Positions 322 to 35,037 of a stretch of 50,320 bases of DNA are shown here, piece after piece. The notes under the pieces were generated by a model. That model did not search any database, had not been told where the DNA came from, and worked only from the letters and a program-made list of their open reading frames with translations. The first letter of the stretch is position 1; every line of letters begins with the position of its first letter. The translations under genes and the position numbers were made by a program. The DNA is from Lentisphaeria bacterium (GTDB taxonomy: Bacteria; Verrucomicrobiota; Lentisphaeria; Victivallales; Victivallaceae): the NCBI GenBank assembly GCA_017450705.1, contig JAFSTC010000075.1:1-50320 (forward strand). Reading direction: 5' to 3'.

Positions 322-1086
322 GTGAAAAATGTTATTCCCGTGATCGTGGCCGTCGTGTTGGGATTGGCCGGAGTGTTTGCCGTCAACAGGGTGGTGGCCC
401 GAAAAGCGGTCCGGAAGGAGGCCATGATCGCGATCTGCGCCGCGTCCCGGATGCTGAAGGCCAACGAGACCATTTCGGAAGAGTATGTCTACCCCAAGGA
501 GGTCGCGGTGTCTTCCCTGCCGCAGCAGTACATCGCGTACAGCAACCGGAATCTGGTGATCGGCCAGAAGACACTTTTCCCCATTGCCAAGAACGACTAC
601 ATCCTTCTCTCCAATGTCGGCACCTCCTCCAGCATGAGCAACGTGCTCAGCGACGGCGAATGGGGCTGTCCCGTGCGGTTCAGCGACACGACGCTGCTGA
701 ATCTGATTCAGCCGGGGGACGAGATCGCGATCGTGGCCCTCTACCAGTACAAGCAGGTGGTGAAACGGGAGAAGGACGTCAACGCCAAAGCGCAGGAGAT
801 AACCCGGCAGGTCGCGACGGTGCTCTATCCCCAGGTGCGCGTCCTGGAGAAACGTGGTTCGGCCGTCATCATCTCCATGCCGCCCCGGCAGGCGATTGCG
901 CTGACGGCCATCCAGCAGCGGGCACAGCTGTTCCCCCTGCTGCGCAAGGCCAACGACTCCAGAGGACTGGACAGGAAAGCCGGCGGCGTGTTCGATCTCT
1001 CGAACGACTTCTTCGCCAAACTGGCCGAAGGGATGCAGACCATCGAGATCCCGGCTGTTCCCGCCGGCGTGAAAACTCCCAGATAA
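322..1086 (+). CDS. cpaB: CpaB/RcpC-type Flp pilus assembly protein
   Basis: A 254-residue inner-membrane-anchored periplasmic protein of the tad/cpa pilus machine. One membrane helix spans about residues 4-22, followed by an SAF-like region (about 35-95) with the pattern 'AICAASRMLKANETIS...YVYPKEV...IGQKTLFPI', typical of CpaB. Family members are thought to connect the secretin to the inner-membrane platform. Start is GTG with GGAGG eight bases upstream; an in-frame ATG lies nine bases downstream. It is the first gene of the tad locus and is followed 12 bp later by the secretin, the usual cpaB-cpaC order. Identification is by domain pattern and neighbourhood. Confidence 0.88.
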   Translation: MKNVIPVIVAVVLGLAGVFAVNRVVARKAVRKEAMIAICAASRMLKANETISEEYVYPKEVAVSSLPQQYIAYSNRNLVIGQKTLFPIAKNDYILLSNVGTSSSMSNVLSDGEWGCPVRFSDTTLLNLIQPGDEIAIVALYQYKQVVKREKDVNAKAQEITRQVATVLYPQVRVLEKRGSAVIISMPPRQAIALTAIQQRAQLFPLLRKANDSRGLDRKAGGVFDLSNDFFAKLAEGMQTIEIPAVPAGVKTPR

Positions 1087-1098
1087 CGAGGTGCAGAT

Positions 1099-2595
1099 AT
1101 GAAAAAATTGCTTCCCGCTTTGCTGCTGTTTGCGTTTTTGCCGGCGTTCTCCCAGGAGCGGATCAGTCTGGCGGTCCAGGAGAGCCGGGAGATCCAGCTG
1201 CCTTTTGCCGTCCAGAGCTATAAGGCGACGCCGCAGAAAAAGGTCAAAATCGATTCGATCTCCGAAAACAAGCTGCTGGTGACCGGCGTTTCACAGGGCA
1301 ACTGTGAACTCCTGGTCTCCGGCGGGAGCATTTCCCGGAAGGTCTTCATCTCCGTGGTCAGCAACCTGAAGGCGATGCTCAAAAAGATCAGATATGACCT
1401 CCAGGACCTGACGGAGCTGGATATCGCCGTCAATCAGGATGTCATCGTCATCAGCGGCAGTTTGAGCAAATACGACAAGTGGAAGTACCTGAATGACGTG
1501 CTCGCTTCCTATGACCGGAAGACCGTGCTTTCCTACGTCAAGTTCGTTCCCTCCGCGGAGACGGTCATCAATCTCCGGAAGACGCTCGAGACTTTGGGGT
1601 ACAAATTTTCCGAAAAGGAGACCGCGGAGCCGGGGCTCCTCTTCCTGAAAATGTCGCCCGAGGCCTTTTTCCTGAGCGGCAAAGTGTTCAGTCAGGGCGA
1701 ACTGAACGAGATCATGGAAGTGCTGAATGCCCAGCCCTGGCTCGATCTGGGCACGAAGGGCGTCGCCCCGGCCGGAAAGGTCAAGGCCATGGTCAATATC
1801 TCCGTGGTCAAGACCCAGATCGCCGTGGATATCGCTTTCCTCGCGCTGAATGCCCGCGACAGAGACAACCTCGGCAGCGGCGGAGTCCTCTCGGGAAGAG
1901 TTGACTTCAATTTCCTCTATGACATCATCAACGGAAGAACGACCGAAAAAGTTGCCCAGTTCGGGGGCGATATGAACAGAACACTGGGATTTCTGGCCAA
2001 CAGCGGCGTGACGCGCATCCACAAGGCCGGATCGGTGTCGTTCACCAACGGCGACGCCTCCGGCGGACATTTGAAAGTCGGCGGCACCAAATACGTCAGG
2101 GTCTCCGGCGTCGGTTCGAGCGATCTGAAGGAGATCAACTACGGTTTCATCATCACCGTCAAGGGGACGATCATGAACCGCCGTCAGATAAATCTGAACC
2201 TCGATCTGGAACTTTCCCACATGGATGGCGAGAACGAAAAAATGGACAACACGGTCCGCACCTCGCGGGTCGCGGAGTTCGACAAAACGGCGATCATCGG
2301 GGGATTCAAGGACATCACCCGCACGATCGGCAACTCCGGATTTCCCATTCTGCGCAACACGCCCGTCCTGCAGTGGTTCGTCGCCGAGCAAAGCGATACG
2401 GACGTCCAGAACGATCTGCTGGTTCTGGCCTGTCCCCGGGTGTGTCTGGACTCCAAGGTCGTCCAGATCGATATCCCCGTGACCGACCGGGTCGCGCCGA
2501 CGGTGAAGGACGTCGACAAGGACAATGAGGAATACAAGAAGGGCCGGAAGAAGTATTCCGGGAATCTTTACTGGCTCAACTGGTTCGTCTGGTGA
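1099..2595 (+). CDS. cpaC: CpaC/RcpA-type secretin of the tad pilus
   Basis: A 498-residue outer-membrane secretin through which the Flp pilus would exit. The N-terminus is a signal peptide (MKKLLPALLLFAFLPAFS, cut before Q). Next comes a pilus-formation N-domain (about 20-95) and a BON-like region (about 96-170). The C-terminal secretin domain (about 310-475) has the pattern 'GFIITVKGTI...INLNLDLELSHMDG' and the hallmark 'GFPILRNTPVLQWFV' near residue 417. The start follows ACGAGGTG, and the gene lies 12 bp after cpaB and 16 bp before the ATPase gene. Length fits CpaC proteins. No lipobox is seen, and no RcpB-type partner gene is present nearby. Confidence 0.92.
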   Translation: MKKLLPALLLFAFLPAFSQERISLAVQESREIQLPFAVQSYKATPQKKVKIDSISENKLLVTGVSQGNCELLVSGGSISRKVFISVVSNLKAMLKKIRYDLQDLTELDIAVNQDVIVISGSLSKYDKWKYLNDVLASYDRKTVLSYVKFVPSAETVINLRKTLETLGYKFSEKETAEPGLLFLKMSPEAFFLSGKVFSQGELNEIMEVLNAQPWLDLGTKGVAPAGKVKAMVNISVVKTQIAVDIAFLALNARDRDNLGSGGVLSGRVDFNFLYDIINGRTTEKVAQFGGDMNRTLGFLANSGVTRIHKAGSVSFTNGDASGGHLKVGGTKYVRVSGVGSSDLKEINYGFIITVKGTIMNRRQINLNLDLELSHMDGENEKMDNTVRTSRVAEFDKTAIIGGFKDITRTIGNSGFPILRNTPVLQWFVAEQSDTDVQNDLLVLACPRVCLDSKVVQIDIPVTDRVAPTVKDVDKDNEEYKKGRKKYSGNLYWLNWFVW

Positions 2596-2611
2596 TTCAC
2601 GGGATGCGGTC

Positions 2612-4405
2612 ATGAACGTTATCGTAAAAAACATACAGGATGACCGGCGCATCGCCCAGGTCAGGCTTGCCGATGACGGGAGCTGTCTGCTGCTGGGCCG
2701 GGGAACGGACTGCGATCTGATCCTGCCCTCCAACGCCGTTTCCCGCAGGCATGCGCGTCTCATGTTCATAAACAACATGTTCTTCGTGGAGGACATGGGC
2801 AGTACCGGCGGTACGCGGGTCAACGGCGTCCGGATCGCCGAAATGACGCAGATCCGGCCCTCCGATGCGGTGCAGATCGCCCATTTCTCGATCTCTCTGG
2901 AAGAGGAATCCGCGGAGGGGAGATCCGTCCCGGCCGGTCCTCCGGAGGGAGAAGTCTCCCCGGCCTCCTCCGAGGCTTCTCCCGCGGAGCCCGCGCCGGA
3001 ACCCGAGCCCGTTCCCGCGGCGTCATCTCCGGTCCCTTCCGCGCCGCCGCCGGAAAGCCCGGCCGGAGCAAAGAAGCCCGAGGTCAACAATTTTCTGGAT
3101 GAATTCAAAAACGCCTCGATCCTCTATGAAAAGGACACGATGCGGCTGACCCACCGGATCCACGAGGAGATCCTCGACAAACTGAACTGGACCGAGGACC
3201 AGATGGTGGACTCCGGCAACGCCCAGCTGATGCAGGAGCTCGAAATGACCCTGGATCAGGTTTTGCGGGAGCACCGTCACGAATTGCCCGTCAATGTCCC
3301 CTTCGATCTTTTCCGCCAGGCGCTGAAGGACGAACTGATCGGCTTCGGTCCGATCTCTCCGCTGCTTCGTTCTCCGAAAATCTCCGAGATCATGATAAAC
3401 GGTCCCAATGTCGTGTATGTGGAGAGCGAGGGGCGGCTGTTCAACAGCGGCGTCCGATTTTACAGCGACCAGCAGTTGCTCTCGATCATTCAGCGCATCG
3501 TCGAACCCCTGGGGCGTCACGTGGACGAGGCGAGTCCCATGGTGGATGCCCGTCTGCCGGACGGTTCCCGCGTCAACGCGGTGATCCCGCCGCTGGCGTT
3601 CCGCGGGGCCTCGGTGACGATCCGCAAGTTCGCCGAAAAGAAATTGACGACGGAGGACCTCATCGCCTTCGGCAGCATGACGCAGGAGATGGCGCTTTTC
3701 CTCGCGGAGGCCGTCCGGGCGAGGAAGAACATCCTGGTTTCCGGCGGGACCGGCTCGGGCAAGACGACCCTGCTCAATGTTTTGTCGCTTTTCATCCCGG
3801 AAGGGGAAAGGGTCATCACCGTCGAAGACTCCGCGGAGCTGAAACTCTCGCATCCCAATCTCGTCGGCCTCGAAGCGCGCCCGGCCAACATCGAAGGGAA
3901 GGGGCGGATAACCATCCGCGATCTCGTGGTCAACACCCTGCGGATGCGTCCTGACCGGATCATCGTCGGCGAATGCCGCGGCGCGGAAGCGCTGGATATG
4001 CTTCAGGCGATGAACACGGGGCACGACGGTTCGCTCACGACGTGCCACGCCAACAATCCCCGGGACGCGCTTTCGCGGATGGAAAACATGGTGATGATGG
4101 CCGGATTCGAGCTGCCCTCCAACGCGATAAGGGAGCAGATCGCTTCGGCGATCGATATCATCGTCCAGCAGTCGCGGCTTTCCGACGGCTCCCGCAAGAT
4201 AGTGCAGATCACCGAGATCACCGGCAAAGAGCAGGACGTGATCCTGATGCAGGATATCTTCCAGTTCGTGCAGACGGGGATCGGCAGGGACGGCAAGGTT
4301 CAGGGGTACCACACGGCGACGGGAAATATCCCGTATTTCATCGACGAAATGCGCCAGAACGGATCGCTTCAGCTGGACCTTTCGGTTTTCGTGCCGAGGA
4401 CCTGA
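2612..4405 (+). CDS. cpaF: FHA domain-CpaF/TadA secretion ATPase fusion
   Basis: A 597-residue cytoplasmic ATPase that would power Flp pilin polymerisation. Residues 1-95 form an FHA phosphothreonine-binding domain (LLGRGTDCDL, SRRHARL, STGGTRVNG). A Pro/Glu/Ser-rich linker (about 100-150) joins it to a full CpaF/TadA ATPase with Walker A GGTGSGKTT (about 378-386), the Asp/Glu box 'VITVEDSAEL', Walker B-like 'RPDRIIVGECRG' and the His box 'GHDGSLTTCHANN'. An open frame extends to 2525 but overlaps the secretin; ATG 2612 is preferred because the FHA fold begins immediately after it. Ordinary CpaF lacks an FHA domain, so this fusion is notable. Confidence 0.93.
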   Translation: MNVIVKNIQDDRRIAQVRLADDGSCLLLGRGTDCDLILPSNAVSRRHARLMFINNMFFVEDMGSTGGTRVNGVRIAEMTQIRPSDAVQIAHFSISLEEESAEGRSVPAGPPEGEVSPASSEASPAEPAPEPEPVPAASSPVPSAPPPESPAGAKKPEVNNFLDEFKNASILYEKDTMRLTHRIHEEILDKLNWTEDQMVDSGNAQLMQELEMTLDQVLREHRHELPVNVPFDLFRQALKDELIGFGPISPLLRSPKISEIMINGPNVVYVESEGRLFNSGVRFYSDQQLLSIIQRIVEPLGRHVDEASPMVDARLPDGSRVNAVIPPLAFRGASVTIRKFAEKKLTTEDLIAFGSMTQEMALFLAEAVRARKNILVSGGTGSGKTTLLNVLSLFIPEGERVITVEDSAELKLSHPNLVGLEARPANIEGKGRITIRDLVVNTLRMRPDRIIVGECRGAEALDMLQAMNTGHDGSLTTCHANNPRDALSRMENMVMMAGFELPSNAIREQIASAIDIIVQQSRLSDGSRKIVQITEITGKEQDVILMQDIFQFVQTGIGRDGKVQGYHTATGNIPYFIDEMRQNGSLQLDLSVFVPRT

Positions 4406-4417
4406 CGGGAGGACGAT

Positions 4418-5278
4418 ATGATCCTGACATACGCCGCAGTTTTTCTCGCGATCGGCTTCGGGTGCTGGCTGTTGACCTTGACCGTCTCGCAGTCGCTGGC
4501 CGAGCGGTATACGAAGGAGCATTTCCGGCGGTACGACAACGTCCGGCGCTTCATAGCGCCGGAAACGCTGCTGCAGATCCAGATCGTCGCCGCAAGTCTC
4601 GCGGCCGCGCTGCTGCTTCTTCTTCTGGTTTTTTCCGGTGTGTATTCGCCCTTCATCCTCATCCCGGCGGGGGCGGCGGTCTGCGTCGCGGGTTTCTTCG
4701 CTCCTTTTCTGTTCTTCGTCTGGAAAGCCAGAAAACGGCAGGAGCTCATCGCTTCGAAACTTCTGGACTTCACCATGGCCCTGACCAACAGCATGAAGGC
4801 CGGCATGGCGCTGCCGCAGGCGCTCGAAGCGGTCACCAAAAGACTGTCGGGGCCCATCCAGGAGGAATTCCAGCAGATCCTGCGCGAGTACAGGCTCGGA
4901 CTGGAGCTGACCGAGGCCTTCGAGCGCCTGGGGACCCGGGTCGTGTGCGAAGATGTGAAACTGCTCGTGACCACGATCAAACTGACCACCCGAACCGGCG
5001 GCAGTCTGGTGGAGGTGCTCGAGGAGATGGTCGTCACGATCCGTCAGCGTACGGAGTTTCAGGAAAAAGTGAAGACCCTGACGGCCCAGGGGCGCTTCGA
5101 AGCCCTCGCGATCTCGCTTTCGCCCATCATCGCCTTCGGTGTCCTCTGGTTCATCGACCGGGAGCTGATGGAGCCGCTGCTGACGACCGGGATCGGCTGG
5201 TGCGCCCTGGGGATCATCGCAGCGCTGATAGCTGTCGGCTTCTTCATCATCAACAAAATCGTCACGATCGAGGTCTGA
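4418..5278 (+). CDS. tadB: TadB-type inner-membrane platform protein
   Basis: A 286-residue polytopic membrane protein of the type II secretion F (GspF) superfamily. Hydrophobic segments lie at about residues 2-22, 48-72, 76-102, 230-250 and 260-283. The central cytoplasmic domain (about 110-225) has the T2SSF pattern 'LLDFTMALTNSMKAGMALPQALEAV' and 'LLVTTIKLTTRTGGSLVEVLEEM'. With TadC it forms the platform driven by CpaF. Start ATG 4418 has GGGAGG six bases upstream, 12 bp after the ATPase stop. Confidence 0.92.
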   Translation: MILTYAAVFLAIGFGCWLLTLTVSQSLAERYTKEHFRRYDNVRRFIAPETLLQIQIVAASLAAALLLLLLVFSGVYSPFILIPAGAAVCVAGFFAPFLFFVWKARKRQELIASKLLDFTMALTNSMKAGMALPQALEAVTKRLSGPIQEEFQQILREYRLGLELTEAFERLGTRVVCEDVKLLVTTIKLTTRTGGSLVEVLEEMVVTIRQRTEFQEKVKTLTAQGRFEALAISLSPIIAFGVLWFIDRELMEPLLTTGIGWCALGIIAALIAVGFFIINKIVTIEV

Positions 5279-5281
5279 AAA

Positions 5282-6193
5282 ATGGAAGAAAATCATATTT
5301 TCGTGTACGGGGCCGTTTTCGGGATGATTTTTTTCTCTTACCTGTTCGTTCAGATGTTTCTGGACGAACCCCGGGAAAAAGGGGCGCGGAGACCGGGGGG
5401 GCGGCTTCCCGCTTTTTTCGCCCTGGGCTACTGGTTTTTCTCGATGTTTTCGGTCTCCGTCGGCGGGTTTTGGAAAAAATACGCCCCCCGGACCTGTGAA
5501 AGGATGCAGAAGCGTCTGATCGCGGCCAATCTGAAGATGCCGGTCGAGATCGTCTTCACCGGACAGCTGCTGACGTGCGTGATCTTCGGGATCGTTGCGT
5601 TCTTTGCCGTGCTGTTCATATTTTCGGAGCCCGCTTTTGCCCTGGCGGGAATGCTTGTCTGCGGGTTCTGCGGCTTTGTCTACCCCGTGAACATCATCGA
5701 CAGACTCGTCCGCACCCGGCAGGAATCGATCATAAAGTCGCTCCCGTTCGCCATCGATCTGCTTGCCTCGGCGATGAAGTCCGGACTTGACTTCTCCGCC
5801 GCGGTCCGGTATTACGTGGCCAACGAGCGGAAAGATCTGCCCCTGGCGCAGGAGTTTGCTGTGGCTCTGCGCGACATGGAGCTGGGCAAGACCCGGATAG
5901 AGGCTCTCGACAGCATGGCGCAGAAGATCCAGTTGGACGAATTCTCCGCGTTCATCGCCGCCGTGATACACGGGACCGAGGTCGGCGCTTCCATCGTCTC
6001 GACCCTGAAAGTCCAGGGTGAGGAGATGCGCCGGGTCAGGTTCAACGTGGCGGAACGCAAGGCGGCCCGGGCGCCGTCGATCATGATCCTCCCCATCGCG
6101 CTTTTCATCATGCCCGCGTTCATCATGGTGATCGCGGCTCCCATATTTATCAAGATGCAGCTTACGGGCGGGCTTGGAGCGTTGTTCAAATGA
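5282..6193 (+). CDS. tadC: TadC-type inner-membrane platform protein
   Basis: A 303-residue T2SSF-family membrane protein, paralogous partner of TadB. Membrane segments lie near residues 8-25, 40-58, 90-130 and 270-295. The cytoplasmic T2SSF domain (about 150-260) contains 'LPFAIDLLASAMKSGLDFSAAVRYYV' and 'FSAFIAAVIHGTEVGASIVSTLKVQ'. It starts 3 bp after tadB and its stop overlaps the next start (ATGA at 6190-6193), indicating translational coupling. Size and order fit canonical tad loci. Confidence 0.91.
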   Translation: MEENHIFVYGAVFGMIFFSYLFVQMFLDEPREKGARRPGGRLPAFFALGYWFFSMFSVSVGGFWKKYAPRTCERMQKRLIAANLKMPVEIVFTGQLLTCVIFGIVAFFAVLFIFSEPAFALAGMLVCGFCGFVYPVNIIDRLVRTRQESIIKSLPFAIDLLASAMKSGLDFSAAVRYYVANERKDLPLAQEFAVALRDMELGKTRIEALDSMAQKIQLDEFSAFIAAVIHGTEVGASIVSTLKVQGEEMRRVRFNVAERKAARAPSIMILPIALFIMPAFIMVIAAPIFIKMQLTGGLGALFK

Positions 6194-8004
6194 GATACCA
6201 GATCAAATTCACAAAGGGGGATTTGGCCGGTCAGGCGTTTCCGATCGATCGGGATTCCGTCTCCGTCGGCCGGTCCAGGTCAAATGACATCGTTTTGAAG
6301 ACGGGCGACGTCTCGCGGAAACACCTCATCGTATCCAGAAAGGGCCGCGATATTTTCCTGGACAATCTGAGTGTCCGGCCGACGACCCGCTGCGGAGCCG
6401 TCGAACTCGCAATGGGCGAAAGCATCCCTTTCCGGGCCGGTATGGAGATCTCCATCGGACGGGAGAACGCCTTCGTTCTGGAATCTCTGGACGACGGATT
6501 TTACGGCGGCGAAGCGACTCTGATCCCCGGCGCCGCCGGCGTCTCCGGCAGCGATAAGACGGTGATCCCCGACGGTGCCGATGCGGTCCCCGTCGGCGGC
6601 AAGACGGTGATCCCCGACGGCGTCGATTCGGTCTCTCCCGGGGGCAAAACGGTGATTCCTGACGGCGTCGATGCGGCATTTTCCAGCGACGGCAAGACCA
6701 TGCTTCCCGGCGTCGATGCGGCATTTTCCAGCGACGGCCGGACGATACTTCCCGGCGTCGTCGACCCGAACGCCGGATTTTCCCCCGACGGCCGGACCGT
6801 TCCCGAACAGGCGGGCATCGATGCGGCGGCCGTGAAGGGAACCTGTACCGAGTCTGCGAAAAACGCGGAAACGCCTGCCGCTCAGGGAGAAAGTTCCGGA
6901 GAGACCGTCTTCCCTTTCGAAAAGACGACGGGCGGACTGAAGACGGTCGGGCTGAAAACACGGGCTGCCACGCCCGAAGAGATCCAGCTGGTCAAGGACG
7001 CCGAGAGGAAAAAGCTCCGCCGGAAATCGTTCCTGATCGGCGCCGGCGCGACGCTTCTTCTCGTCCTGCTGGGGGTTTACTTCTATTTCACGCTGTACAA
7101 GGCGCCGGAGCCCTATATCTCCTGGCCGAAAAAAGACGGCAGGCTCCTGGTCGGTTACGCCCGGATCCAGGACAAGATCTTCCCGTTCCCCAATGATCTG
7201 CAGCTGGGGTTTCCCAATCCGCCGTCGACCAGGATCTTCAGCCAGCCCGGCGTGCTGGAGATCACGACCCGGACGGGCAGATACCTGGACGTCCCCTGTT
7301 TTATCCGTCTGGAGTACCTGAGGATCCCCGGAGGGCTGAAAATGGACAGGCTCGACGCCTTCGAACGCTGGATGAACGAGAAGTCCTCCGGAAAAAACGG
7401 CTGGAATTTCGATGTGCCTTCGCCGCTGCAGTTTTTCTTTCAGGACAACGGGATCCCGCACTACGCCATCTTCTACACCCGTACCGTCGGCCGGATATCG
7501 GTCTGCGGGATCGCGCGCTTTTTCCGGATGGAGGACTGGCAATTCGTCCTCACCGCCGAGATCCCCGCTCACGAGAGATGGCGCGGCACGACATTTCTCA
7601 AGCAGAACTTCATCCAGTTCTCCTACGACTTTCTGTACGCCCACTGGGAGGGGATGAAACTGACGCAGCCGGTCGACAAGGAAAACGGCGTTTACGAGGC
7701 GAGGATGCTCCTGTCGCGGCAGTCCCCTTCGGTGTGGGGCCGGGTCGAGTATCTGCTGAGAACGGCCCTTATCTGCTGCGACCGCATCCGGGATGCGGAG
7801 CTCCGCGCCGAAGCCCGGCGGCTGCTGATGCTGCTGCGCTCGACCCAGATCAAATGGTTCAACGAACAGAAGATCGCCTACCGGCGGGCGCAGACGCTGG
7901 AAGACAAGGACGGCATGGAAAGAATAACCGAAAAGTGCAAGGCGGTTTTTTCCTCTCCTGAGGACATGCGGTTCCACGCTGTCAGGCAGGATAACTGGAG
8001 GTGA
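6190..8004 (+). CDS. Membrane-anchored FHA protein with tandem KTVIPDG-type repeats
   Basis: A 604-residue protein of unknown function. Residues 1-98 form an FHA domain (VSVGRSRSNDIVL, SRKHLIV, a degenerate third motif LDNLSVRPTTRCG). Residues about 108-205 carry about seven degenerate repeats around a threonine in K/R-T-[VMI]-[IL]-P-[DG]-G, the first full copy with Thr124. A single membrane helix (about 281-303) precedes a predicted extracytoplasmic domain of about 300 residues with no recognised family. The repeated threonines could be kinase sites read by the FHA domains; this is inference. ATGA overlap with tadC places it in the same operon. No kinase domain is present. Confidence 0.82.
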   Translation: MRYQIKFTKGDLAGQAFPIDRDSVSVGRSRSNDIVLKTGDVSRKHLIVSRKGRDIFLDNLSVRPTTRCGAVELAMGESIPFRAGMEISIGRENAFVLESLDDGFYGGEATLIPGAAGVSGSDKTVIPDGADAVPVGGKTVIPDGVDSVSPGGKTVIPDGVDAAFSSDGKTMLPGVDAAFSSDGRTILPGVVDPNAGFSPDGRTVPEQAGIDAAAVKGTCTESAKNAETPAAQGESSGETVFPFEKTTGGLKTVGLKTRAATPEEIQLVKDAERKKLRRKSFLIGAGATLLLVLLGVYFYFTLYKAPEPYISWPKKDGRLLVGYARIQDKIFPFPNDLQLGFPNPPSTRIFSQPGVLEITTRTGRYLDVPCFIRLEYLRIPGGLKMDRLDAFERWMNEKSSGKNGWNFDVPSPLQFFFQDNGIPHYAIFYTRTVGRISVCGIARFFRMEDWQFVLTAEIPAHERWRGTTFLKQNFIQFSYDFLYAHWEGMKLTQPVDKENGVYEARMLLSRQSPSVWGRVEYLLRTALICCDRIRDAELRAEARRLLMLLRSTQIKWFNEQKIAYRRAQTLEDKDGMERITEKCKAVFSSPEDMRFHAVRQDNWR

Positions 8005-8008
8005 CATC

Positions 8009-10372
8009 GTGTTCATCAGGAAAAAGAAACTGCTGCTGCGGCTGGAATTGGAGAACAAATTCATCTGTCAGATCACCTCCGATGAGCTGGATCGTCCGAT
8101 CACGATCGGCCGGGACCGGAACTGCGACTGGCGGATTCCCGCCGCGGACCGGAGCGCGAGCAACCGCCACGCCGAGTTGTTTCTCCGCCGCGGCCGGGTC
8201 TGCATCCGGGATCTCGGCAGTCACAACGGCGTTTACTTTCTGGGCGAAAAAATCACGGAGCGGGCCGTGTCCCCCGGGGACCGCTACGGCATCGGGGATG
8301 CGGTTTTGTCCGTTTCGCAGGCCAGGGAGAACGACGGCACGGAAACCGGGCGCAAATTTCACCGGCTGGAACAGCTCAACGGAAAGAACCGGAAAAAAGT
8401 CTACGAGCTTTCCGCCGCCAGTTATACCATCGGTTCGGCCGATGACGCGGAGATCCGCATCGAAGACACCCTGGTCTCCCGCCGCCACGCCCGGCTGGAG
8501 CTCAAAAACGACGGGACCTGCTGGGTCATCGATCTGGGGAGCCGCAACGGAACGTTCGTGAATCGTCTGATGCTCTCCGCCGAAAACACCGACGGGCGGA
8601 TGCTTCAGCAGGGCGATACGCTTTCGGTCGGCAGCGTGGATTTCTGTTTTTACGACCGGAACGTCATGGTCCAGAAGTCCTATTTTCTGTTGAAATCGCT
8701 GTGTGCGGCCGCCACGGTCGCCGTCATCCTCTCGGGATATTTCTTCTGGCAGTCGCTGCTGCCCACGTCGAAGGATCACATCGAACGGGCGAAAAAACTT
8801 TCGGAGAGCCGGCAGTTCGATGCGGCGCTGCGGCAGCTTGACAAGGCCGCCGATGCGTCCAAAGCCGCCAGCTACCGGGCGGAAAGCGCGGACCTGAGAA
8901 AGCAGATCGAAAACTGGCGGAAGACGACGAAAAAATGGGAGGAGACAAAACAGCTGATATCGAACCGCCGCTGGGTTTCCGGCAACAAAATCCTGGCCGG
9001 ACTGGTCGCGGGCAAGGGCGACGTCTGGAATTGGAACAACACCGACGCCATCGAAAGCCGGCGGCAGGCCCTCCTGATGTCCGAGGTGCTGGAGCCCTTC
9101 CTCCATGCGAGGATCCTCATGTCGGAGTCCGGGACCGGGGTGGCGGCGCTGGAGACGGATCTGGCCAAACTGAACGCGGCGCTGCGGAACATCGCCGGGC
9201 GTCCGGAAGAGTATTTCCAGCTCCTGTACGCCGAGGGAAAAATCATTTCCGGGGAACTTGCGTATGTGACGGACCGTCTGAAGCAGATCGAAAAGACGGT
9301 GGCGGCGGCCAATGCGGACCGCCGGTTCGAAAAGGACATCGGGCTTCTCGAGGCCATCAGCCGCGAGGCTCTGGAGCGGAGCCGTGAACCTGAAAAAGTC
9401 CGCCGCCGCCTGACGGCGCAGCTGGTGCCGAACCGCTGCCGGATTTATCTGTCTCCGCTGAAAGCCTTTGCTGCCGCACAGAAACAATTCAGGCACAACC
9501 TCGAAAAACTGGCGTCCATGGAGTTCCGGCAGCTGCACCGGGAGCTCCCGCTGCCCAAGTCCGAGGAGTGCGTCGTCTCGCCCGTGTTCACGTCGCTCCG
9601 GAGCGAGATGCTCAGCCGGAACGAGACGCTTCTCCAGCGGGGCAAACAGCTCGAGTACCTGACCGAAACGCTCAAAAAACGGGGGATCGTTCCCGGCAAG
9701 CAGCCTGAAATGCTCCAAAAATGGCAGGAAAAGGGATTTGCCGACCGGCTGCTGTCGTGCGACTGCTTCAAGTACGACGCCAGGCTGTGGGCGGCGAACC
9801 GCAAAAAGCCCGTCGGCGTGTTCGACGCCTTTCTGGGGATCGAATTCTTCTGGGATTTTCTCCGCGGACTGCCGGGAAAATTCGACGCGGCCCTGCTGGA
9901 TGAACGGCCCTTCGTTCCGGAGATCGTTCAAATCAGGAATATTTACGGCGACCTCGAAGTTTTCAGGGGCTATATCGAAGATCCCGTGCTCGGTCTTCTG
10001 CTCTCGCAGGAGGTCAAAAAGCCCCGTCTGCAGGATCTGGCGCTGTGGGTGGACGAACTGCTGACGCGGCGGGACAACACTCTGACCGGATTCGTCCGCC
10101 GTTCCCGGGAGTGCGCCAGATCCCGCGACGCTTTGATCCTCGGCGGCGCCGTTCTGATTCTGGACGCCGGAAAGAACGCGGACATTGCCGGGGAATACGG
10201 GCGTCTCGCCGGACTTTTCGGGAAATTGCGCCGGGAGGTCTCCGGCATAGCCGACCAAGACGCCGTTCCGGAACAGGTCATCAGGAACCGCCGGACGATC
10301 GTCGCCCTCGGTCTGCCCGGGGATCCCGCTGTCAGAAAGGCGTTTTACGAGATGTCGGAGGAGAAAAAATGA
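8009..10372 (+). CDS. Tandem-FHA membrane protein with long helical C-terminal domain
   Basis: A 787-residue protein with two FHA domains: about 25-95 (TIGRDRNCDWRIP, SNRHAEL, GSHNGVYF) and about 135-205 (TIGSADDAEIRI, SRRHARL, GSRNGTFVN). Both keep the Arg, Ser-x-x-His and Asn-Gly positions needed for phosphothreonine binding. One membrane helix (about 229-249) is followed by about 535 mainly helical, charged residues of no recognised family. Start is GTG 8009, with GGAGGTGA at 7997-8004 overlapping the previous stop. Its stop overlaps the next gene (ATGA). The protein could link cytoplasmic phosphosignalling to the envelope side of the pilus machine. Confidence 0.85.
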   Translation: MFIRKKKLLLRLELENKFICQITSDELDRPITIGRDRNCDWRIPAADRSASNRHAELFLRRGRVCIRDLGSHNGVYFLGEKITERAVSPGDRYGIGDAVLSVSQARENDGTETGRKFHRLEQLNGKNRKKVYELSAASYTIGSADDAEIRIEDTLVSRRHARLELKNDGTCWVIDLGSRNGTFVNRLMLSAENTDGRMLQQGDTLSVGSVDFCFYDRNVMVQKSYFLLKSLCAAATVAVILSGYFFWQSLLPTSKDHIERAKKLSESRQFDAALRQLDKAADASKAASYRAESADLRKQIENWRKTTKKWEETKQLISNRRWVSGNKILAGLVAGKGDVWNWNNTDAIESRRQALLMSEVLEPFLHARILMSESGTGVAALETDLAKLNAALRNIAGRPEEYFQLLYAEGKIISGELAYVTDRLKQIEKTVAAANADRRFEKDIGLLEAISREALERSREPEKVRRRLTAQLVPNRCRIYLSPLKAFAAAQKQFRHNLEKLASMEFRQLHRELPLPKSEECVVSPVFTSLRSEMLSRNETLLQRGKQLEYLTETLKKRGIVPGKQPEMLQKWQEKGFADRLLSCDCFKYDARLWAANRKKPVGVFDAFLGIEFFWDFLRGLPGKFDAALLDERPFVPEIVQIRNIYGDLEVFRGYIEDPVLGLLLSQEVKKPRLQDLALWVDELLTRRDNTLTGFVRRSRECARSRDALILGGAVLILDAGKNADIAGEYGRLAGLFGKLRREVSGIADQDAVPEQVIRNRRTIVALGLPGDPAVRKAFYEMSEEKK

Positions 10373-10826: not shown

Positions 10827-11156
10827 ATGAAAATCAAAGGTCTTCGGATCGCTTCCGTCAAACGGACGGTTTTGGGCAGGACGTTCTGCCGCCTGCTCGG
10901 CGATGAAATGGGCGCCGTCGCCATGGAATACGTGGTCATCGCCCTGCTGGTGGTCGCCGCATCTGTGGGAGCCGCCCTCTTTTTCGGAGCCGGAATAAGA
11001 CGCGGATTAGTATCAACCGTACGAATGATCTTCGCACCGAACAAAACCGCAGAGTCACAGCAGATCAGCAGCGAAAATCCGGGATTTGTTCAGGCTGGGC
11101 AGGCTCAAAGTAACGCGGTTAAAAACAATATTGGCGGCACCGATACCCCTGAGTAA
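10827..11156 (+). CDS. flp: Flp-type major prepilin
   Basis: A 109-residue prepilin. A 28-residue basic leader ends in DEMG, followed by AVAMEYVVIALLVVAASVG with Glu at +5 and Tyr at +6, the Flp signature. The hydrophobic helix runs about residues 29-52, and a tail of about 55 residues rich in Asn, Gln and Ser follows, longer than in typical Flp proteins. The open frame extends upstream to 10623, but ATG 10827 with AAAGGAAAG in front is the right start because it gives a normal leader. The prepilin peptidase gene follows 10 bp later. This is the best candidate for the major pilus subunit. Confidence 0.88.
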   Translation: MKIKGLRIASVKRTVLGRTFCRLLGDEMGAVAMEYVVIALLVVAASVGAALFFGAGIRRGLVSTVRMIFAPNKTAESQQISSENPGFVQAGQAQSNAVKNNIGGTDTPE

Positions 11157-11166
11157 AAAACGTGTT

Positions 11167-11715
11167 ATGGCAACTCCGCTTTACATACTGGCTGTCGTGA
11201 CGCCGTGGCTGGCATATTTGTGCTGGTCGGACGTCCGGACGCGGCGGCTTCCCAATCTTGGGACATTGGGGATGCTGGGTTGCGCCCTGATCTGGCGTCT
11301 GGCGTACGGCGGAGTCCCCCTGTTCATGAACGGTCTTGTCGGCGGAGCGCTCTGCGGAGCGTTTCTGCTCCTGCCGTTCCTGCTGCGCGGCGCGGGCGGC
11401 GGCGACGTGAAAATGATCGCCGCCGCGGGCGCCGTGCTGGGCGTTCAGCGGATCGCGCTGATGCTCTTCGCCACTTCGCTGGCCGGTTTTGTGCTGGCGC
11501 TGGTGATGCTGTGCTGCCGCCGCGCGGATCCGGCCCGGCTGAAGCATTATTTTCTCTGCCTTTTCTGGTGGCGATACGACCGTGCCGCCGGACGGGCGGC
11601 CCTGCCGCCGAAGGACTCCGAAAGGGCCCGGATCCCTTTCGGCGCGGCGATCGCCGCCGGCGTCTGGCTGGCCCTCTTCTTCGAAATTTTCATGATTTGG
11701 AGGAACGGACGGTGA
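11167..11715 (+). CDS. tadV: Type IV prepilin peptidase (TadV/CpaA type)
   Basis: A 182-residue polytopic membrane aspartyl protease of the A24 family that would process the Flp and TadE-like prepilins. The catalytic aspartates are visible in 'CWSDVRTRRLPN' (about residue 21) and 'GAGGGDVKMI' (about residue 80, GxGD motif). Five to six hydrophobic segments cover most of the protein. It lacks the N-terminal methylase domain of PilD, as expected for TadV. The start is placed at ATG 11167, just after the flp stop, which implies translational coupling; no good ribosome binding site is seen. The stop overlaps the next ATG by one base. Confidence 0.9.
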   Translation: MATPLYILAVVTPWLAYLCWSDVRTRRLPNLGTLGMLGCALIWRLAYGGVPLFMNGLVGGALCGAFLLLPFLLRGAGGGDVKMIAAAGAVLGVQRIALMLFATSLAGFVLALVMLCCRRADPARLKHYFLCLFWWRYDRAAGRAALPPKDSERARIPFGAAIAAGVWLALFFEIFMIWRNGR

Positions 11716-12434: not shown

Positions 12435-15074
12435 ATGAGCCGTCTGATCCTGAAAATTTGCATGGAAAGATTCAAATCGCTCCCCCGGGACGAAAGCGGT
12501 GCGGCCGTGATGATAACGCTGGCGGTGGTTCTTTTCCTGTATCTGCTCTGCTCGTCCGTTTACGCCGTCGGCATGACTGTCAACGAAAAGATCCAGCTGC
12601 AGAACGCCTGCGACGCGGCGGCGTATTCCGGAGCGGTGGTGGAAGCGGATTGTCTGAGCCGCATCGCGACCATCAACCGCGCCATGTCCTGGACCTACAT
12701 CCAGACCGTGAAACGGCGGATGGATTACATCGTGCTGGAATGGCTGAAGCTGACGGTGGACAGATTCAAGGAAGACGAGGACATGTGCCGGAATTATAAT
12801 AGCCACAATTATAAAGACTTTCTTCTCAATCCGGGACCGGTTCCCGGAGATGAAGACCCCATCCCTCCTCCTGAAAAAAACAGGGGGTACAGAGCATATT
12901 CTATTACGCCATACCCTTGCAGTGAACATGAAAGCGGCAAACGGGGCGGGGGAACCTGGTGGTGCGGATGGACGCCGCAGGACGGCGCGAACGAAAGCGA
13001 TGCCCTCGTCAGGCTCGGCTATCTGACGAAAGATGAGGACCGCGCCGGCCGCGCCGGTTTCCAGTACGGCCGTTTTCTCAAGCGCACCGAGATCAGGGAT
13101 GAACTGCTGCACAGCTACGGGCAGCTGAAAGACGAACTGCAGAAAAAAATCGTGAACGACGACGAGGTGCTTGCCGCGCTCTCCGCGCTGCAGTTCCAGT
13201 GCGTCGGATCCATGAACGAAAAGATTTCCTCGGCCGCTCTGAACGTGCTGCGCGACAATCTGCCCCGAAATTCCGGTCTGGGCGACGACGAATACTTCTA
13301 CCGGGTGGATCTGCCGAGCTTCAACAATCCCTACCTGGATCTGAAGGAAAACGAGTTGTGGGCGGGCGTATTTTCCGCCTGCCGGAATACGGAGGAGGAC
13401 GAACTGGAGTTCCTGGCGGCGGCGCTGAATACCGACGCCTCGAAAGAAAAGGTTTTTTCCGGCGGGTTCCTCTTTCAGGACATCTTCGGCGGCGACGATA
13501 ACCGGTGCGACGGCATCGACCAATGGTTCATACGCGGCAGTCAAAGCACCCTGACGAAAGAAGACATCCGTTTTGCGGCGACGGCCGACGATCTTGCCAT
13601 GCGCGGCATCCAGCGCGGCTACAAAAGCGCCAACCGGGCCGAGGCGGAAGCCGCGACATCCGTTCTGCGGGGAAATCACGTCGCGTACGGCAATAATCTG
13701 ACAGGTTCTGCCCAGGCAATAGTGAACTGGGCGCAAAAATCAGCAATTCCAGTCTTATGCAGTCCTGTCATTGCTCAAAATTTCTCGACGGCATTGGGCA
13801 AATTCAATGCCGGCAAGAATTTGGATATCGTTCCTTCGGCCGTGAATTCGGGAAATATATTTGTCGAACAGTGCAAAAGCACCGAAAACAATTTCGGCCT
13901 GGTCGCGGAATACCATTGGGCCTCCATGCGCTGGTGGTGCGCCCGACTGTGGGGGTGGATTAAAATTTCCAGAAGGTATAAGGTTCCGAGATACCTTACT
14001 GAAATGCATTTCAAAGTATGCCCTGTTGATGTTTGTTCCAAACACGGAAACGGCGGGACCGATTCCAATTCCCGCGGCGGTTACAAACAGTGCTATGTCG
14101 GGAAATATATGCTCGATGACATGGATACGCATGGATCCTACAATGATTTCCCGGGGTACATGACCATGGGGTACAGCCGGGTATACGGCGACGACCGGGC
14201 GATATTCAAAAGTGAGACCCAGCGGTATTACATGACTCCCAAAGTGATGCCGATGAAACTGAACCGCACGTTCTTTCAGGAGCGGATCAACGTCGTGGCG
14301 GGCAAGAGACAGAAAAACCCCTTCCGCTGGATGTATTCCGGGAACGGCGGGTTCCGTCCGGCGGCTTCCGGGAACTCCGTTTTCGCTATGTTCGATCCGA
14401 TGCTCGTCACTTCGTCCGGCGATGCGGAGAGCATGATCCTCGCCTCCTCTTCGGCCGCCGCGGCGTTCCGCTCCCGCAGAAATCCCGGGGAGGGACATTA
14501 CGAGACCAATTACGACCAGATCTCCAGTTTCGAATACGACGACGCCTTCGCAAATGACGAGCCGACGATCGCCCTGACCGGCAATGGCACAGGGGCCCTC
14601 GCTTCCGAACTGCGCATCGGCTGCCCCCACCGCAGCGGCGGCAATCGGATCGGCAGCCGGATGAAACAGGCGTGGAACCTTTGCGAAACCGATTGGCAGG
14701 CCGTCTTCGTCCCGCAGCACTACGCCGATTTCAACTGGATCGGACGCAGAACTTCCGGAAGCGTCACGGCCCCTTACGACTCTTTCACCCTCCCGGCAAA
14801 CGGCGATGTCTTTTATTGCCGCCATCCCCGGCCGCCTGCCGGGACCCGGAATTTCCTTCTGCGCTGTCTGGGTTTCCCGGAGGAGAGTGCCTCGGAGAAA
14901 CAGGAAAAAAAAAGGTATCTGCTGCCGCTGTACGGAGACGGTTCGGCCGATTCCGGGCCGATCCGGACCGCTCATCCCGGCCACTGGGACGGCGATCGGC
15001 AGCTCTTCATTCCGGGCCGGCTGTTCGGCAGCGACAGCCTGCCCGCGTTCGTCCTGAAATACAAATGGCAATAA
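12435..15074 (+). CDS. tadG: TadG-like pilus assembly protein, large
   Basis: An 879-residue protein. The TadG N-terminal pattern is clear: RDESGAAVMITLAVVLFLY followed by 'NEKIQLQNACDAAAYSGA' (about residues 18-65), in which the helix is preceded by Gly and position +5 is not Glu, as in TadG. The rest is a large extracytoplasmic region with many Trp and Cys residues. Typical TadG proteins carry a von Willebrand A domain; I see no DxSxS MIDAS motif here, so the C-terminal part seems different. In the family the protein is needed for pilus assembly or surface anchoring. Confidence 0.8.
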   Translation: MSRLILKICMERFKSLPRDESGAAVMITLAVVLFLYLLCSSVYAVGMTVNEKIQLQNACDAAAYSGAVVEADCLSRIATINRAMSWTYIQTVKRRMDYIVLEWLKLTVDRFKEDEDMCRNYNSHNYKDFLLNPGPVPGDEDPIPPPEKNRGYRAYSITPYPCSEHESGKRGGGTWWCGWTPQDGANESDALVRLGYLTKDEDRAGRAGFQYGRFLKRTEIRDELLHSYGQLKDELQKKIVNDDEVLAALSALQFQCVGSMNEKISSAALNVLRDNLPRNSGLGDDEYFYRVDLPSFNNPYLDLKENELWAGVFSACRNTEEDELEFLAAALNTDASKEKVFSGGFLFQDIFGGDDNRCDGIDQWFIRGSQSTLTKEDIRFAATADDLAMRGIQRGYKSANRAEAEAATSVLRGNHVAYGNNLTGSAQAIVNWAQKSAIPVLCSPVIAQNFSTALGKFNAGKNLDIVPSAVNSGNIFVEQCKSTENNFGLVAEYHWASMRWWCARLWGWIKISRRYKVPRYLTEMHFKVCPVDVCSKHGNGGTDSNSRGGYKQCYVGKYMLDDMDTHGSYNDFPGYMTMGYSRVYGDDRAIFKSETQRYYMTPKVMPMKLNRTFFQERINVVAGKRQKNPFRWMYSGNGGFRPAASGNSVFAMFDPMLVTSSGDAESMILASSSAAAAFRSRRNPGEGHYETNYDQISSFEYDDAFANDEPTIALTGNGTGALASELRIGCPHRSGGNRIGSRMKQAWNLCETDWQAVFVPQHYADFNWIGRRTSGSVTAPYDSFTLPANGDVFYCRHPRPPAGTRNFLLRCLGFPEESASEKQEKKRYLLPLYGDGSADSGPIRTAHPGHWDGDRQLFIPGRLFGSDSLPAFVLKYKWQ

Positions 15075-18807: not shown

Positions 18808-19197
18808 ATGAAGATTTTAACGGCACGGCGGGAAAAAGTTTTTTTCGCGGCACTTCTTTTCGGCATGATTTCCTGCGCCGGTCTGCGCGCGGACGAGTTC
18901 AGCAATTTGTTCGATCCGCTGTGGCTGGGGGAAGGGCCGAAAGAGGAACTTTCCGGAAAGGGCTGGCGGCAGTCCGGCCGTCTGCTGAAGACGTTCGAGG
19001 CGGCGGATTCTCAGATCTCCCAGCTGCTCAAGGATCGGGGATTCACGGTCCGAAACAGTTCCGAAGGCCGGAAAAATACGAGAAGATGCAAGATCTCCCT
19101 CTGGCGGAAGAATGACCGGCAGATCATCGTCATGCTTCTGGAACTCGGGATCGGGGAAACTTCCTTTTCGTGGGGACTCGTCGACAATGTCAAATGA
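18808..19197 (+). CDS. Small secreted protein of unknown function
   Basis: A 129-residue protein with a signal peptide (to about residue 28, ISCAGLRADE). The Cys at residue 23 sits in 'GMISCAG', which resembles a weak lipobox. The rest is charged, with the pattern 'ISQLLKDRGFTVRNSSEG' and no recognised family. The 3' end overlaps the start of the phosphatase gene by 11 bp in another frame. It belongs to the tad operon by spacing. Confidence 0.65.
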   Translation: MKILTARREKVFFAALLFGMISCAGLRADEFSNLFDPLWLGEGPKEELSGKGWRQSGRLLKTFEAADSQISQLLKDRGFTVRNSSEGRKNTRRCKISLWRKNDRQIIVMLLELGIGETSFSWGLVDNVK

Positions 19198-19990
19198 CAT
19201 GCGGGCCCGCATCGCCGATTTCGCCGACGTTTCCGAAACCGGACTGGCAAGGGAGGAAAACGAAGATTCCCTGCTGTCGCTGCCGGATGACGGCTTTTTT
19301 GCCGTGTCGGACGGCATGGGCGGCGCATCGGCGGGCGCGACCGCCAGCCGGATCATCACCCGCGGACTGCGTGCCATGACCGGCACCGCCGGGGATTCTC
19401 CGGGAGAACGCAAGTATCTGCTCCAGCAGACACTGCATAAGGTCAATTCGGATATCGCCGGATTCGCGGCCGCCCACGGTTACGGGACCATGGGGGCGAC
19501 CGTTTCTTCCCTGCTGCTGGACCCCTGGGACACGGGGAAAGCGGATATCTGCAATATCGGTGACAGCCGCATATACTGTTTCCGGCAGGAAGAGCTGTTT
19601 CTGCTGACCGAGGACGATGTCCTGTCCGCCGATCCCGCACGAAAGCACATATTGACCAACTATCTCGGCGACAAGGCCTGCATGTCCGCGGCATGGGAGC
19701 GGATCTCCGTCTGTCCCCGGGACCGTTTTCTCCTTTGCACCGACGGATTGTCTTCCGTTCTGCCGGATGAAAAAATACGCGACATCCTGGCGGCCAGGGA
19801 AGATGCGGAACATACACTCCGGTCCCTCGCGGAAGGGATCGTGAGGGCCGGGGCTCCCGACAATTACTCCGCCATCTGCATCGATATCGCCGAAACGCTG
19901 CCGCCGGATCCCGAGATCACGCCGGAAGACCGCGAGGAGAGCAACTACCTGTACGGCATCGCCGAGAAGAGAAGAGATTACGGCAGATAG
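19187..19990 (+). CDS. PP2C-family Ser/Thr protein phosphatase
   Basis: A 267-residue cytoplasmic phosphatase that removes phosphate from Ser/Thr residues. PP2C (PPM) metal-binding motifs are complete: REENED (22-27), SDGMGG (41-46), GTMGATVSS (100-108), IGDSRIY (124-130), TDGLSS (185-190) and DNYS (225-228). ATG 19187 is chosen because it gives a normal N-terminus; ATG 19199 is an alternative. It is the last gene of the tad locus and overlaps the preceding gene. With four FHA domains upstream it would be the 'off' side of a threonine-phosphorylation switch; the kinase is not in this window. Confidence 0.93.
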   Translation: MSNDMRARIADFADVSETGLAREENEDSLLSLPDDGFFAVSDGMGGASAGATASRIITRGLRAMTGTAGDSPGERKYLLQQTLHKVNSDIAGFAAAHGYGTMGATVSSLLLDPWDTGKADICNIGDSRIYCFRQEELFLLTEDDVLSADPARKHILTNYLGDKACMSAAWERISVCPRDRFLLCTDGLSSVLPDEKIRDILAAREDAEHTLRSLAEGIVRAGAPDNYSAICIDIAETLPPDPEITPEDREESNYLYGIAEKRRDYGR

Positions 19991-24831: not shown

Positions 24832-25035
24832 TTATGGCTGAGTCTTGGCTGGATTATGGCTGTTTTGCGCCATTTCAGCCAAAACTTGAAACTTGCAACC
24901 GATTGCAAGTTGGTTGCAAGTTGGTTGCAAGTTTACCATCAAACCGTGACAAACCGTCACGACTTGATCACTCGAAAGGGAGGGGATAAAATGTCCCCGT
25001 CCTTGCTCTAACATGTGGCTGCGCTCCATCTTCAT
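24832..25035 (-). CDS. Possible 67-residue protein between mod and res
   Basis: An open frame whose ATG overlaps the mod stop (ATGA at 25032-25035) and which ends 35 bp before the res start. The tight coupling fits the rest of the operon. However, about half the frame is made of tandem repeats, there is no recognised family, and the composition is not clearly protein-like. Listed as a candidate only. Confidence 0.3.
   Translation of the reverse strand: MKMERSHMLEQGRGHFIPSLSSDQVVTVCHGLMVNLQPTCNQLAIGCKFQVLAEMAQNSHNPAKTQP
24892..24961. repeat. Tandem and inverted repeats in the mod-res junction
   Basis: The 11-bp unit TTGCAAGTTGG occurs 2.8 times (24903-24933). CTTGCAA at 24892-24898 forms an inverted partner with TTGCAAG at 24903-24909. 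Next come AAACCGTGAC and AAACCGTCAC (24941-24960), in which CGTGAC and GTCACG are inverted copies. Nearby, ATGGCTG recurs around 24833-24862. They could regulate or vary res expression. Confidence 0.7.
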
Positions 25036-26930: not shown

Positions 26931-26950
26931 TATCTTCTCCTCGTCAAGTA

Positions 26951-27580
26951 TTAGGCAACATCCAAATTTTTAAGATACGCTCGCAAATCAGAAATCAGTT
27001 TATCCATGTCGTCGTTTATAGTCTGTGTGCGCCGCGAACATTCTTCAAACAACGCTTTTGATTCGCGCCGGGATTCAAATGCGAAATCATCTATATAAAA
27101 CGCCGGATAATGGAATAATTGCATGTCAACATCGCGGAGAATGTTTCTAAAGCGCTCAAAAATACTTTCCTCTATAAATGGGGCATTACAATGCAGTTGA
27201 ATGGATGCCTTATTAAATGCTTCTGTACATTTATTCATTCGAGTGATGTAAAAATTTTTTTGTTTTGGTTTATCTTCTGGAACACTGTCTAAACGATAAA
27301 ATGTAAACAAATGATTTTGGGTTTTTACCACTTCCAAAAATGCGGCAGACAAATCTCTGTATATTGCAAACTCCGCATCGAAGCGCACCCTGCTGACATA
27401 GTTTTTGCGTTCCAATCGCTTGGTCAGACGTTCCAATTCTTCGCGGTATTTTGCCGATTCCTTTGCCATCAACCGCTCTGCCCAAACCTTGCCGAGCCAC
27501 GATGAAAGTGCCGCAACGATAGCGCCCCCGATCCCAACGCTGCCTAAAATGGCGAGCGCCGTTTGTATGATCTCTTTCAA
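26951..27580 (-). CDS. Membrane-anchored coiled-coil protein of unknown function
   Basis: A 209-residue protein with one N-terminal membrane helix (about 9-32, AILGSVGIGGAIVAALSSWL), then a charged coiled coil (about 38-60, ESAKYREELERLTKRLE) and a helical domain. Proteins with this build often sit in defence operons, where a membrane anchor can serve an effector role; that role is not shown here. The gene is AT-rich compared with Mod ends and helicase. It overlaps the upstream gene by 4 bp (ATGA) and lies 20 bp before mod. Confidence 0.75.
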   Translation of the reverse strand: MKEIIQTALAILGSVGIGGAIVAALSSWLGKVWAERLMAKESAKYREELERLTKRLERKNYVSRVRFDAEFAIYRDLSAAFLEVVKTQNHLFTFYRLDSVPEDKPKQKNFYITRMNKCTEAFNKASIQLHCNAPFIEESIFERFRNILRDVDMQLFHYPAFYIDDFAFESRRESKALFEECSRRTQTINDDMDKLISDLRAYLKNLDVA

Positions 27581-34700: not shown

Positions 34701-35037
34701 TGACCTTTGCCCGTATCCAGTCGGCGCATTCGCGGGCAATCGCTTTCTGGGTCAGCTCGTTGCGCAGCTTGATCTCGAAGTCCGATCCGCAGAGGGTCTG
34801 CTCACGCTGCAGTCTCGGAATATAGAACTCACGCTTTTCTTTGGGGGCGTGCTCGGTGGTGAAGGTCGGCGAGGTGAAGATAAAACGCAGCTCGGCGATT
34901 TGCGAGAGTTGCTCCTTCAATTCCTGATAGGCGTAGATGGAAAAACACGCGGCGGCGATGGATATTTTGCTCCCGGGACGAATCTCCTGCTTGAGATCGT
35001 CCTTCACAAATTCCTTGATGTTATCGAACATACGCAT
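31774..35037 (-). CDS. SNF2-type helicase with N-terminal PLD-like domain
   Basis: A 1087-residue helicase. The N-terminal region (about 1-180) looks like the phospholipase D-like domain of defence helicases ('[16 protein letters not shown]', '[11 protein letters not shown]'), but I see no HxKxxxxD motif. ATPase motifs are GLGKT (about 272-276), DESHNF (about 357-362), SATPVNN, '[19 protein letters not shown]' and [10 protein letters not shown] (about 822-831). A run of seven Asp follows DESHNF. It is the first gene of the operon; the start is ATG 35037 or ATG 35031, with AAGGA 13 bases upstream of the first. It probably remodels DNA or displaces protein in the R-M-linked response. Confidence 0.9.

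Follow-up and report, generated by a model that had tools for sequence, protein, structure and literature searches.

A threonine-repeat linker beside an FHA domain in a Tad pilus locus of Lentisphaeria, a candidate multi-site phosphothreonine scaffold

The window analysed here is the whole stretch of 50,320 nucleotides from a contig of a Lentisphaeria bacterium. The subject gene belongs to a Tad pilus locus, a run of tad genes on a single strand (Table 1), and in the relatives too a homologue of the double-FHA gene comes next after the homologue of the subject gene. Of the 25 frames of the window that were scanned with Pfam, none matched a T6SS core family; the scan gave secretin, CpaF, T2SSF, peptidase A24, TadE and Tad domains. 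The double-FHA protein reached a score of 71.8 with the TagH model TIGR03354 (cut-off 120.25), and the PP2C-type phosphatase matched NF033484 at 5.2e-37 with a score of 127.6, below the cut-off of 230. Three proteins of the window carry FHA domains, namely the subject protein, the CpaF and the double-FHA protein. The pocket Ser is present in the latter two, and the second FHA domain of the double-FHA protein has Ser instead of the pocket Arg.

Table 1. Coordinates of the tad genes and of the parts of the subject gene in the window
Feature	Position	Strand	Basis
CpaB-like gene	322..1086	+	TIGR03177 8.7e-15, 54.7 bits, below cut-off 71
Secretin	1099..2595	+	PF00263 2.3e-11
CpaF/TadA motor ATPase with N-terminal FHA domain	2525..4405	+	PF00437 2.5e-66, PF00498 4.5e-16
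TadB-like membrane protein	4418..5278	+	PF00482 3.3e-15
TadC-like membrane protein	5282..6193	+	PF00482 9.2e-16
Subject gene (FHA, Thr-array linker, TM helix, C-terminal domain; 604 aa)	6190..8004	+	
FHA domain of subject protein (residues 1-102)	6190..6495	+	Pfam FHA and structure matches
Seven Thr-centred linker repeats	6511..6810	+	Translation, tandem-repeat finding
Juxtamembrane motif KTVGLKTRAATPEE	6940..6981	+	Alignment of 13 relatives; pattern search of family genes
Transmembrane helix core, basic residues before it	7027..7083	+	Hydropathy; model helix 262-302
C-terminal domain, predicted PsbP- and SciW/EagT6-like fold	7144..7629	+	Structure matches of model
Double-FHA protein, directly 3' of subject gene	8009..10372	+	PF00498, two stretches, 5.2e-33
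Peptidase A24 frame, just upstream of TadG-like gene	11086-11715		Pfam
TadE-domain frame, just upstream of TadG-like gene	ends 12431		Pfam
TadG-like protein	12435..15074	+	PF13400 domain
PP2C-type Ser/Thr phosphatase	19112..19990	+	PF13672 4.8e-13, over cut-off

The FHA domain of the subject protein was recognised by Pfam (PF00498, residues 24-90, 27.8 bits against a cut-off of 20.7), and FHA structures matched this part of the predicted model with Z up to 13.6 in the structure comparison. Its string GRSRSNDIVLKTGDVSRKH contains the Arg and the Ser of the phosphothreonine pocket (GRS...DVSRKH). The Asn-Gly of the last loop is lacking, as the alignment gives NLSVRPTTRCG at the place where many relatives have ENLSSHGT; we take the pocket consensus to be Arg and Ser together with Asn-Gly in the last loop. 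In sequence, the FHA part also matched EmbR and GarA chains weakly, which is read as FHA kinship and nothing more. The linker (residues 103-256) has a pLDDT below 50 in the structure model and is predicted to be disordered, and, given the basic residues ahead of the transmembrane core, it should lie on the cytoplasmic side, while the C-terminal domain is presumably extracytoplasmic. In the whole-protein model, the C-terminal part matched PsbP (2xb3, Z 13.2 over 144 residues), SciW (6xrr, Z 11.6 over 121 residues) and EagT6 (Z 11.5), and the other matches listed for it have folds of a similar kind. The subject protein also matched the Pfam family Yop-YscD_cpl (PF16697) with 35.5 bits against a cut-off of 33.2. 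The YscD family has periplasmic ring-building domains.

The original prediction placed about seven degenerate copies of a Thr-centred motif between the FHA domain and the membrane helix. The translation confirmed the seven copies, each with a Thr (residues 110, 124, 139, 154, 170, 185 and 203; codons starting at 6517, 6559, 6604, 6649, 6697, 6742 and 6796), and the order FHA, repeats, helix was borne out by Pfam, pLDDT and the model helix. The spacing is variable as predicted, successive Thr being 14, 15, 15, 16, 15 and 18 residues apart. The core [KR]T[VMI][IL]P, which had been described as kept, is exact in five of the seven copies; the first copy reads ATLIP and the last RTVPE. At the DNA level, Tandem Repeats Finder reported two arrays of a 45-nt unit, one of 2.7 copies with 84% matches (6556-6676) and one of 2.2 copies with 92% (6663-6760), and when the 150 residues of the linker were shuffled 5000 times at constant composition, five cores were never reached (expected 0.00). 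Chance or mere composition as the source of the repeats was rejected by these tandem units and the shuffles.

The original prediction also proposed to see whether Thr is the most conserved position of the linker and whether it drifts among orthologues. The outcome is mixed. Among residue types Thr does not rank first, as the pairwise conservation among seven close orthologues was 0.62 for Thr and higher for Lys (0.66), Pro (0.67), Asp (0.67) and Ile (0.72). The three motif Thr compared were kept in 7/7, 7/7 and 6/7 of these orthologues, and from genus to genus the unit changes. Thr124 was nearly invariant among 13 aligned relatives, of which two are truncated.

With a profile built from 13 sequences, the family was found in 42 of 137 genomes of the order, including the own genome, which has a second tad locus (L039). 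When the subject protein alone was the query, no relative was found among named genomes; the alignment-based scan found 16 loci, mostly in Lentisphaeria, Lentisphaerae and Victivallales and otherwise in unclassified bacterial records. The family set comprised 54 genes, with the FHA-only fragments G007:C121, G098:C298 and G125:C100 left out. We defined class I by the pocket Ser of the FHA domain (D[VI]SxxH/Q) and class II by another residue at that position. Class I thus contains 34 genes, of which 31 have the pocket-Ser FHA and three are truncated (L074, L127 and L133; included in the linker and motif counts, kept separate in the locus and juxtamembrane counts), and class II contains 20. The diverged class I gene L072, which is without the juxtamembrane motif, was kept in the linker counts. 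In a maximum-likelihood tree of 53 rows, built from the part from the juxtamembrane motif onward, the two classes were split at 100/100; read without a root, this split fits a loss of the array as well as a gain.

The linkers of class I range from 46 to 553 residues, and their unit sequence turns over between genera. The wording is KTVIPDG in the window, [KRQ]T[CD]PGE in L039 of the own genome, DKTILDEPSPVPADI in L061, EMTIIGAPAPEVKPAAKPADTDP in L074, EMTSVTKFASEVEEG in L058 and TAATRFVEDLLQKE in L060. At least two Thr motifs were present in 26/34 class I linkers and in 0/20 of class II, and at least two equivalent Ser motifs in 1/34 and 0/20, respectively; the repeats are thus not absent from most class I relatives, although clear tandem repetition was found only in 9/34 (class II, 0/20). 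The eight class I linkers with fewer than two Thr motifs include L039. With motif patterns that were defined post hoc from these very sequences, Thr-hydrophobic-hydrophobic occurred 93 times in the 34 class I linkers against 21.7 expected (0/1000 shuffles) and Ser-hydrophobic-hydrophobic 12 times against 18.3, while [KR]T occurred 110 times (expected 34.4) and [KR]S 25 times (expected 28.5). The 20 class II linkers had no excess of Thr motifs over the shuffle expectation. Because repeat copies and orthologues are not independent, similar contexts were collapsed; of the 257 Thr contexts then counted, 15% had a double hydrophobic after the Thr, against 2-5% for the contexts of S, A, E, D, P and G. 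The linkers of CpaF were considered as a negative control, and the two class I and four class II segments that could be extracted were too few for it. A TDDSGH-type repeat, poor in hydrophobics, was observed in the class I linker of L057 (G028), where the Thr is kept and the Thr-hydrophobic context is not.

Kinases and PP2C in the relatives were called by HMMER similarity, beyond six upstream kinases that were checked with Pfam and all matched PF00069; a seventh frame, which proved to be antisense, gave no match. A locus was regarded as testable when the available sequence reached at least 2.5 kb ahead of the secretin, or at least 1 kb past the double-FHA gene. Of the 23 class I loci testable on the upstream side, 22 have a kinase as the first gene ahead of the cpaB-secretin block, in 19 cases on the strand of the block and in three divergent; the second tad locus of the own genome is among the 22, and L055 is the one without. 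On the downstream side, 19 of the 23 class I loci that could be judged have a PP2C gene. In 18 of them it directly follows the double-FHA gene, the remaining one being the window, and it is absent there from L046, L055, L130 and L131. In class II, neither the upstream kinase (0/13 testable loci) nor the downstream PP2C (0/16) was found. These co-occurrences of pocket Ser, array, kinase and PP2C rest on one evolutionary split, as the tree gives no root and class II shares other features as well.

The window itself contains no kinase gene, and 18 Pkinase matches were found in the genome with 0 on the window's contig, which begins 321 bp ahead of cpaB. A candidate for the missing kinase, on contig C107, is 41% identical to a tad-locus kinase of a relative and runs off the contig end; it is an uncertain candidate, as its N-terminus looks zinc-ribbon-like and is without the motif and no link joins the two contigs. 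In 25 N-terminal segments of kinases from class I loci, four of which belong to kinases encoded beyond the double-FHA gene on its downstream side, Thr-hydrophobic-hydrophobic occurred 58 times against 9.9 expected, and the Ser motif 10 times against 11.5. The pattern [KR]T..P did not occur in these 25 segments, and only Thr-hydrophobic-hydrophobic is common to them and the linkers. Among kinases elsewhere in the own genome, a Thr site before the kinase domain was seen by eye in 3/7 (L006, L007 and L008, not L002-L005). In the kinase N-termini of L121, L062, L063, L129 and L130, a Thr unit of the TEVTMVDAPG or HTMVAPSGTPSAASD type is repeated two or three times, so arrays expand in the kinase of tad loci too. 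The kinases L046:14975-18823 and L056:2568-4355 appear by eye to have an FHA-like domain before the Thr motif and the kinase domain, and the kinase L039:15673-19023 (minus strand) has a proline-rich PKPQPQP repeat at residues ~580-690, after the membrane helix.

Taken together, the data make it reasonably probable that the linker serves the Tad pilus machine as a multi-site phosphothreonine scaffold, which is read by FHA domains and reset by PP2C. According to this explanation, a membrane Ser/Thr kinase of the Tad system would phosphorylate the Thr motifs of the linker (K/R-T-V/M/I-I/L-P in the window) and probably also its own N-terminal Thr-hydrophobic-hydrophobic sites. The phosphorylated sites would be bound by the FHA domains of the subject protein, in cis or in trans, of CpaF and of the double-FHA partner, and this binding would cluster the inner-membrane platform and recruit or position the motor, until the PP2C phosphatase resets the scaffold. 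Repetition would supply avidity and not one exact site, so the number, spacing and wording of the repeats could turn over between genera while the Thr and the juxtamembrane T-R-x-A-S/T persist. We infer phosphorylation, FHA binding, clustering and an effect on the pilus from these comparisons. The comparative evidence thus favours the array of phosphorylation sites that the original prediction had proposed, with phosphorylation itself suggested by the sequences, and the oligomerisation switch named beside it may apply by analogy. As a Thr array resembling phosphorylation sites occurs together with kinase and phosphatase genes in sister machines, multi-site phosphorylation may switch pilus building.

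Several observations count against the scaffold. The PP2C of the window is not adjacent to the double-FHA gene and follows 8.6 kb after it. The absence of a kinase gene from the window, the eight class I linkers with fewer than two Thr motifs, the lack of Asn-Gly in the subject FHA domain, and the testable class I loci that have no PP2C (four) or no kinase (one) count on the same side, as do the post hoc choice of the patterns and the dependence among copies and orthologues. The position Thr+3 is variable across linkers, and the Thr motif was mildly enriched in whole double-FHA proteins, used as a control, too (131 against 101.8 expected, 0/1000 shuffles). In 15 of 16 class II loci, a convergent and mostly short kinase gene lies downstream, and the pocket Ser is mostly present in the FHA domains of the class II CpaF and double-FHA proteins. 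Our confidence was slightly reduced by this last finding and by the absence of [KR]T..P from the kinase segments.

The decisive site could instead be the juxtamembrane T-R-x-A-S/T, which, when phosphorylated, would fold back on an FHA domain as a closed/open switch, and the array would only tune it. In the subject protein the two Thr of this motif (Thr252 and Thr257; codons 6943 and 6958) lie outside the region 6519-6810 of the original prediction, and Thr252, Thr257, Arg258, Ala260 and Glu264 were invariant in the 13 aligned relatives (two truncated). With a search pattern in which Ser and Lys were permitted too, the motif was found in 53 of 54 genes examined, and all 53 have the Thr-Arg. The Thr upstream of it was present in 30/30 class I genes with complete FHA and motif and in 2/3 truncated ones, and not in class II. 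Moreover, the arrays of L058, L060 and L134 are built from T-[RK]-F-[AV] units that resemble the site, and the best structural matches include the DgcB FHA domain together with its own phosphorylated N-terminal peptide. However, the wording of most arrays differs from the site, and class II retains it as T-R-Y-A-S in 20/20 genes though its FHA domain is without the pocket Ser. This retention counts against the array as scaffold as well, and the partner FHA domains of class II, which mostly have the Ser, could still read the site there. We regard a switch centred on the juxtamembrane site as rather unlikely, though a serious alternative.

It is less probable still that the linker is a mere flexible tether that has grown by replication slippage, with the repeats as a by-product and no phosphorylation site among them. 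The near identity of the 45-nt units, the wide range of linker lengths with a changing unit, and the rank of Thr behind other residue types among the close orthologues would all agree with a tether. But the arrays of different lineages use Thr with hydrophobics or [KR]-Thr and not Ser, the same Thr-hydrophobic-hydrophobic is enriched in the kinase N-termini, and the relatives that are without an array are also without the pocket Ser and PP2C. Least probable is that the repeats are unphosphorylated short linear motifs for another partner, by kinase docking or beta-strand addition, for which a basic residue, Thr and two hydrophobics would fit on general grounds, yet Val or Ile would do equally well while Thr recurs, and kinase, pocket Ser and PP2C occur together.

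The multi-site scaffold, which remains our preferred explanation, may be part of a wider arrangement, which we put forward tentatively as possible but doubtful. The Tad pili of Lentisphaeria might have a dedicated kinase-FHA-phosphatase module with a shared, loose Thr-hydrophobic-hydrophobic code that is amplified into arrays of fast turnover, giving a locus-specific multivalent phospho-glue and possibly a condensate. The arrays would turn over fast because avidity, not the identity of the site, is selected. Among open-licence PMC papers, those found on FHA or CpaF with Tad or with Lentisphaeria/Victivallales (PMC11217815, PMC12019362) do not describe such a module there in the relevant passages. 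If this is true, Tad pili join the machines that are controlled by threonine phosphorylation, and a ligand is suggested for the FHA domain borne by some CpaF motors. Since there are two natural classes, one with array, pocket Ser and phosphatase and one without them, the idea can be tested directly.

We propose the scaffold mechanism on the model of PpkA-Fha-PppA and Rv1747-PknF-PstP, which are its closest working analogies. In type VI secretion, the passages of PMC12607579 on this pathway report that PpkA phosphorylates Fha, for which T640 is needed in A. citrulli, that the condensates PpkA forms recruit components, and that PppA dephosphorylates Fha1. In Agrobacterium, Fha binds phosphorylated TssL, as stated in part of PMC3953482. 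The likeness lies in a kinase, an FHA scaffold and a phosphatase of one secretion machine, whereas here the machine is a Tad pilus, the Thr motifs are many instead of one or few sites, and the scaffold is membrane-anchored. With tad genes as its neighbours, the system of the window would work like the type VI pathway but does not belong to it. For Rv1747 of M. tuberculosis, the section of the review PMC9312465 on this protein reports that PknF promotes and PstP reverses the condensation of its N-terminal part. Rv1747 (FHA, disordered linker, FHA, ABC transporter) is likewise a membrane protein with FHA and a disordered linker; it differs as a transporter whose linker joins two FHA domains, and that section mentions no tandem repeat.

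The Chlamydia protein CdsD, an FHA-bearing protein of a secretion machine that is phosphorylated by the kinase PknD, resembles the subject protein in this respect and through the PF16697 match; however, in the relevant part of PMC2765968, PknD modifies the FHA domains and not a linker array, and the C-terminal part of the subject protein is predicted to be PsbP/SciW-like. The CpaF of the window shares the architecture of class III, with its N-terminal FHA domain, one of the three CpaF classes distinguished in PMC12019362. The passages of that paper on this class name no phospho-partner, and the word kinase appears a single time in its text, for an assay method. Among T7SS variants, a kinase and a PPM phosphatase are components of T7SSc, and the loci of T7SSg and T7SSh adjoin Tad pilus genes (PMC11217815). 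These variants are similar in having kinase/phosphatase or FHA parts, some of them beside Tad genes, and different in being Gram-positive T7SS; the parts of PMC11217815 on them describe no Thr array.

At the very start of the contig there is a 26-nt inverted repeat, 92% complementary, with arms at 1-26 and 114-139. One copy of this region (1-139) with 67% identity was found on contig C66, and it is perhaps a small mobile element at the assembly break. On the minus strand at 25032-35037, the window also harbors an N6/N4 DNA methylase gene and an SNF2/type III restriction-like helicase gene, and this block is perhaps a restriction or defence island that adjoins the tad locus.
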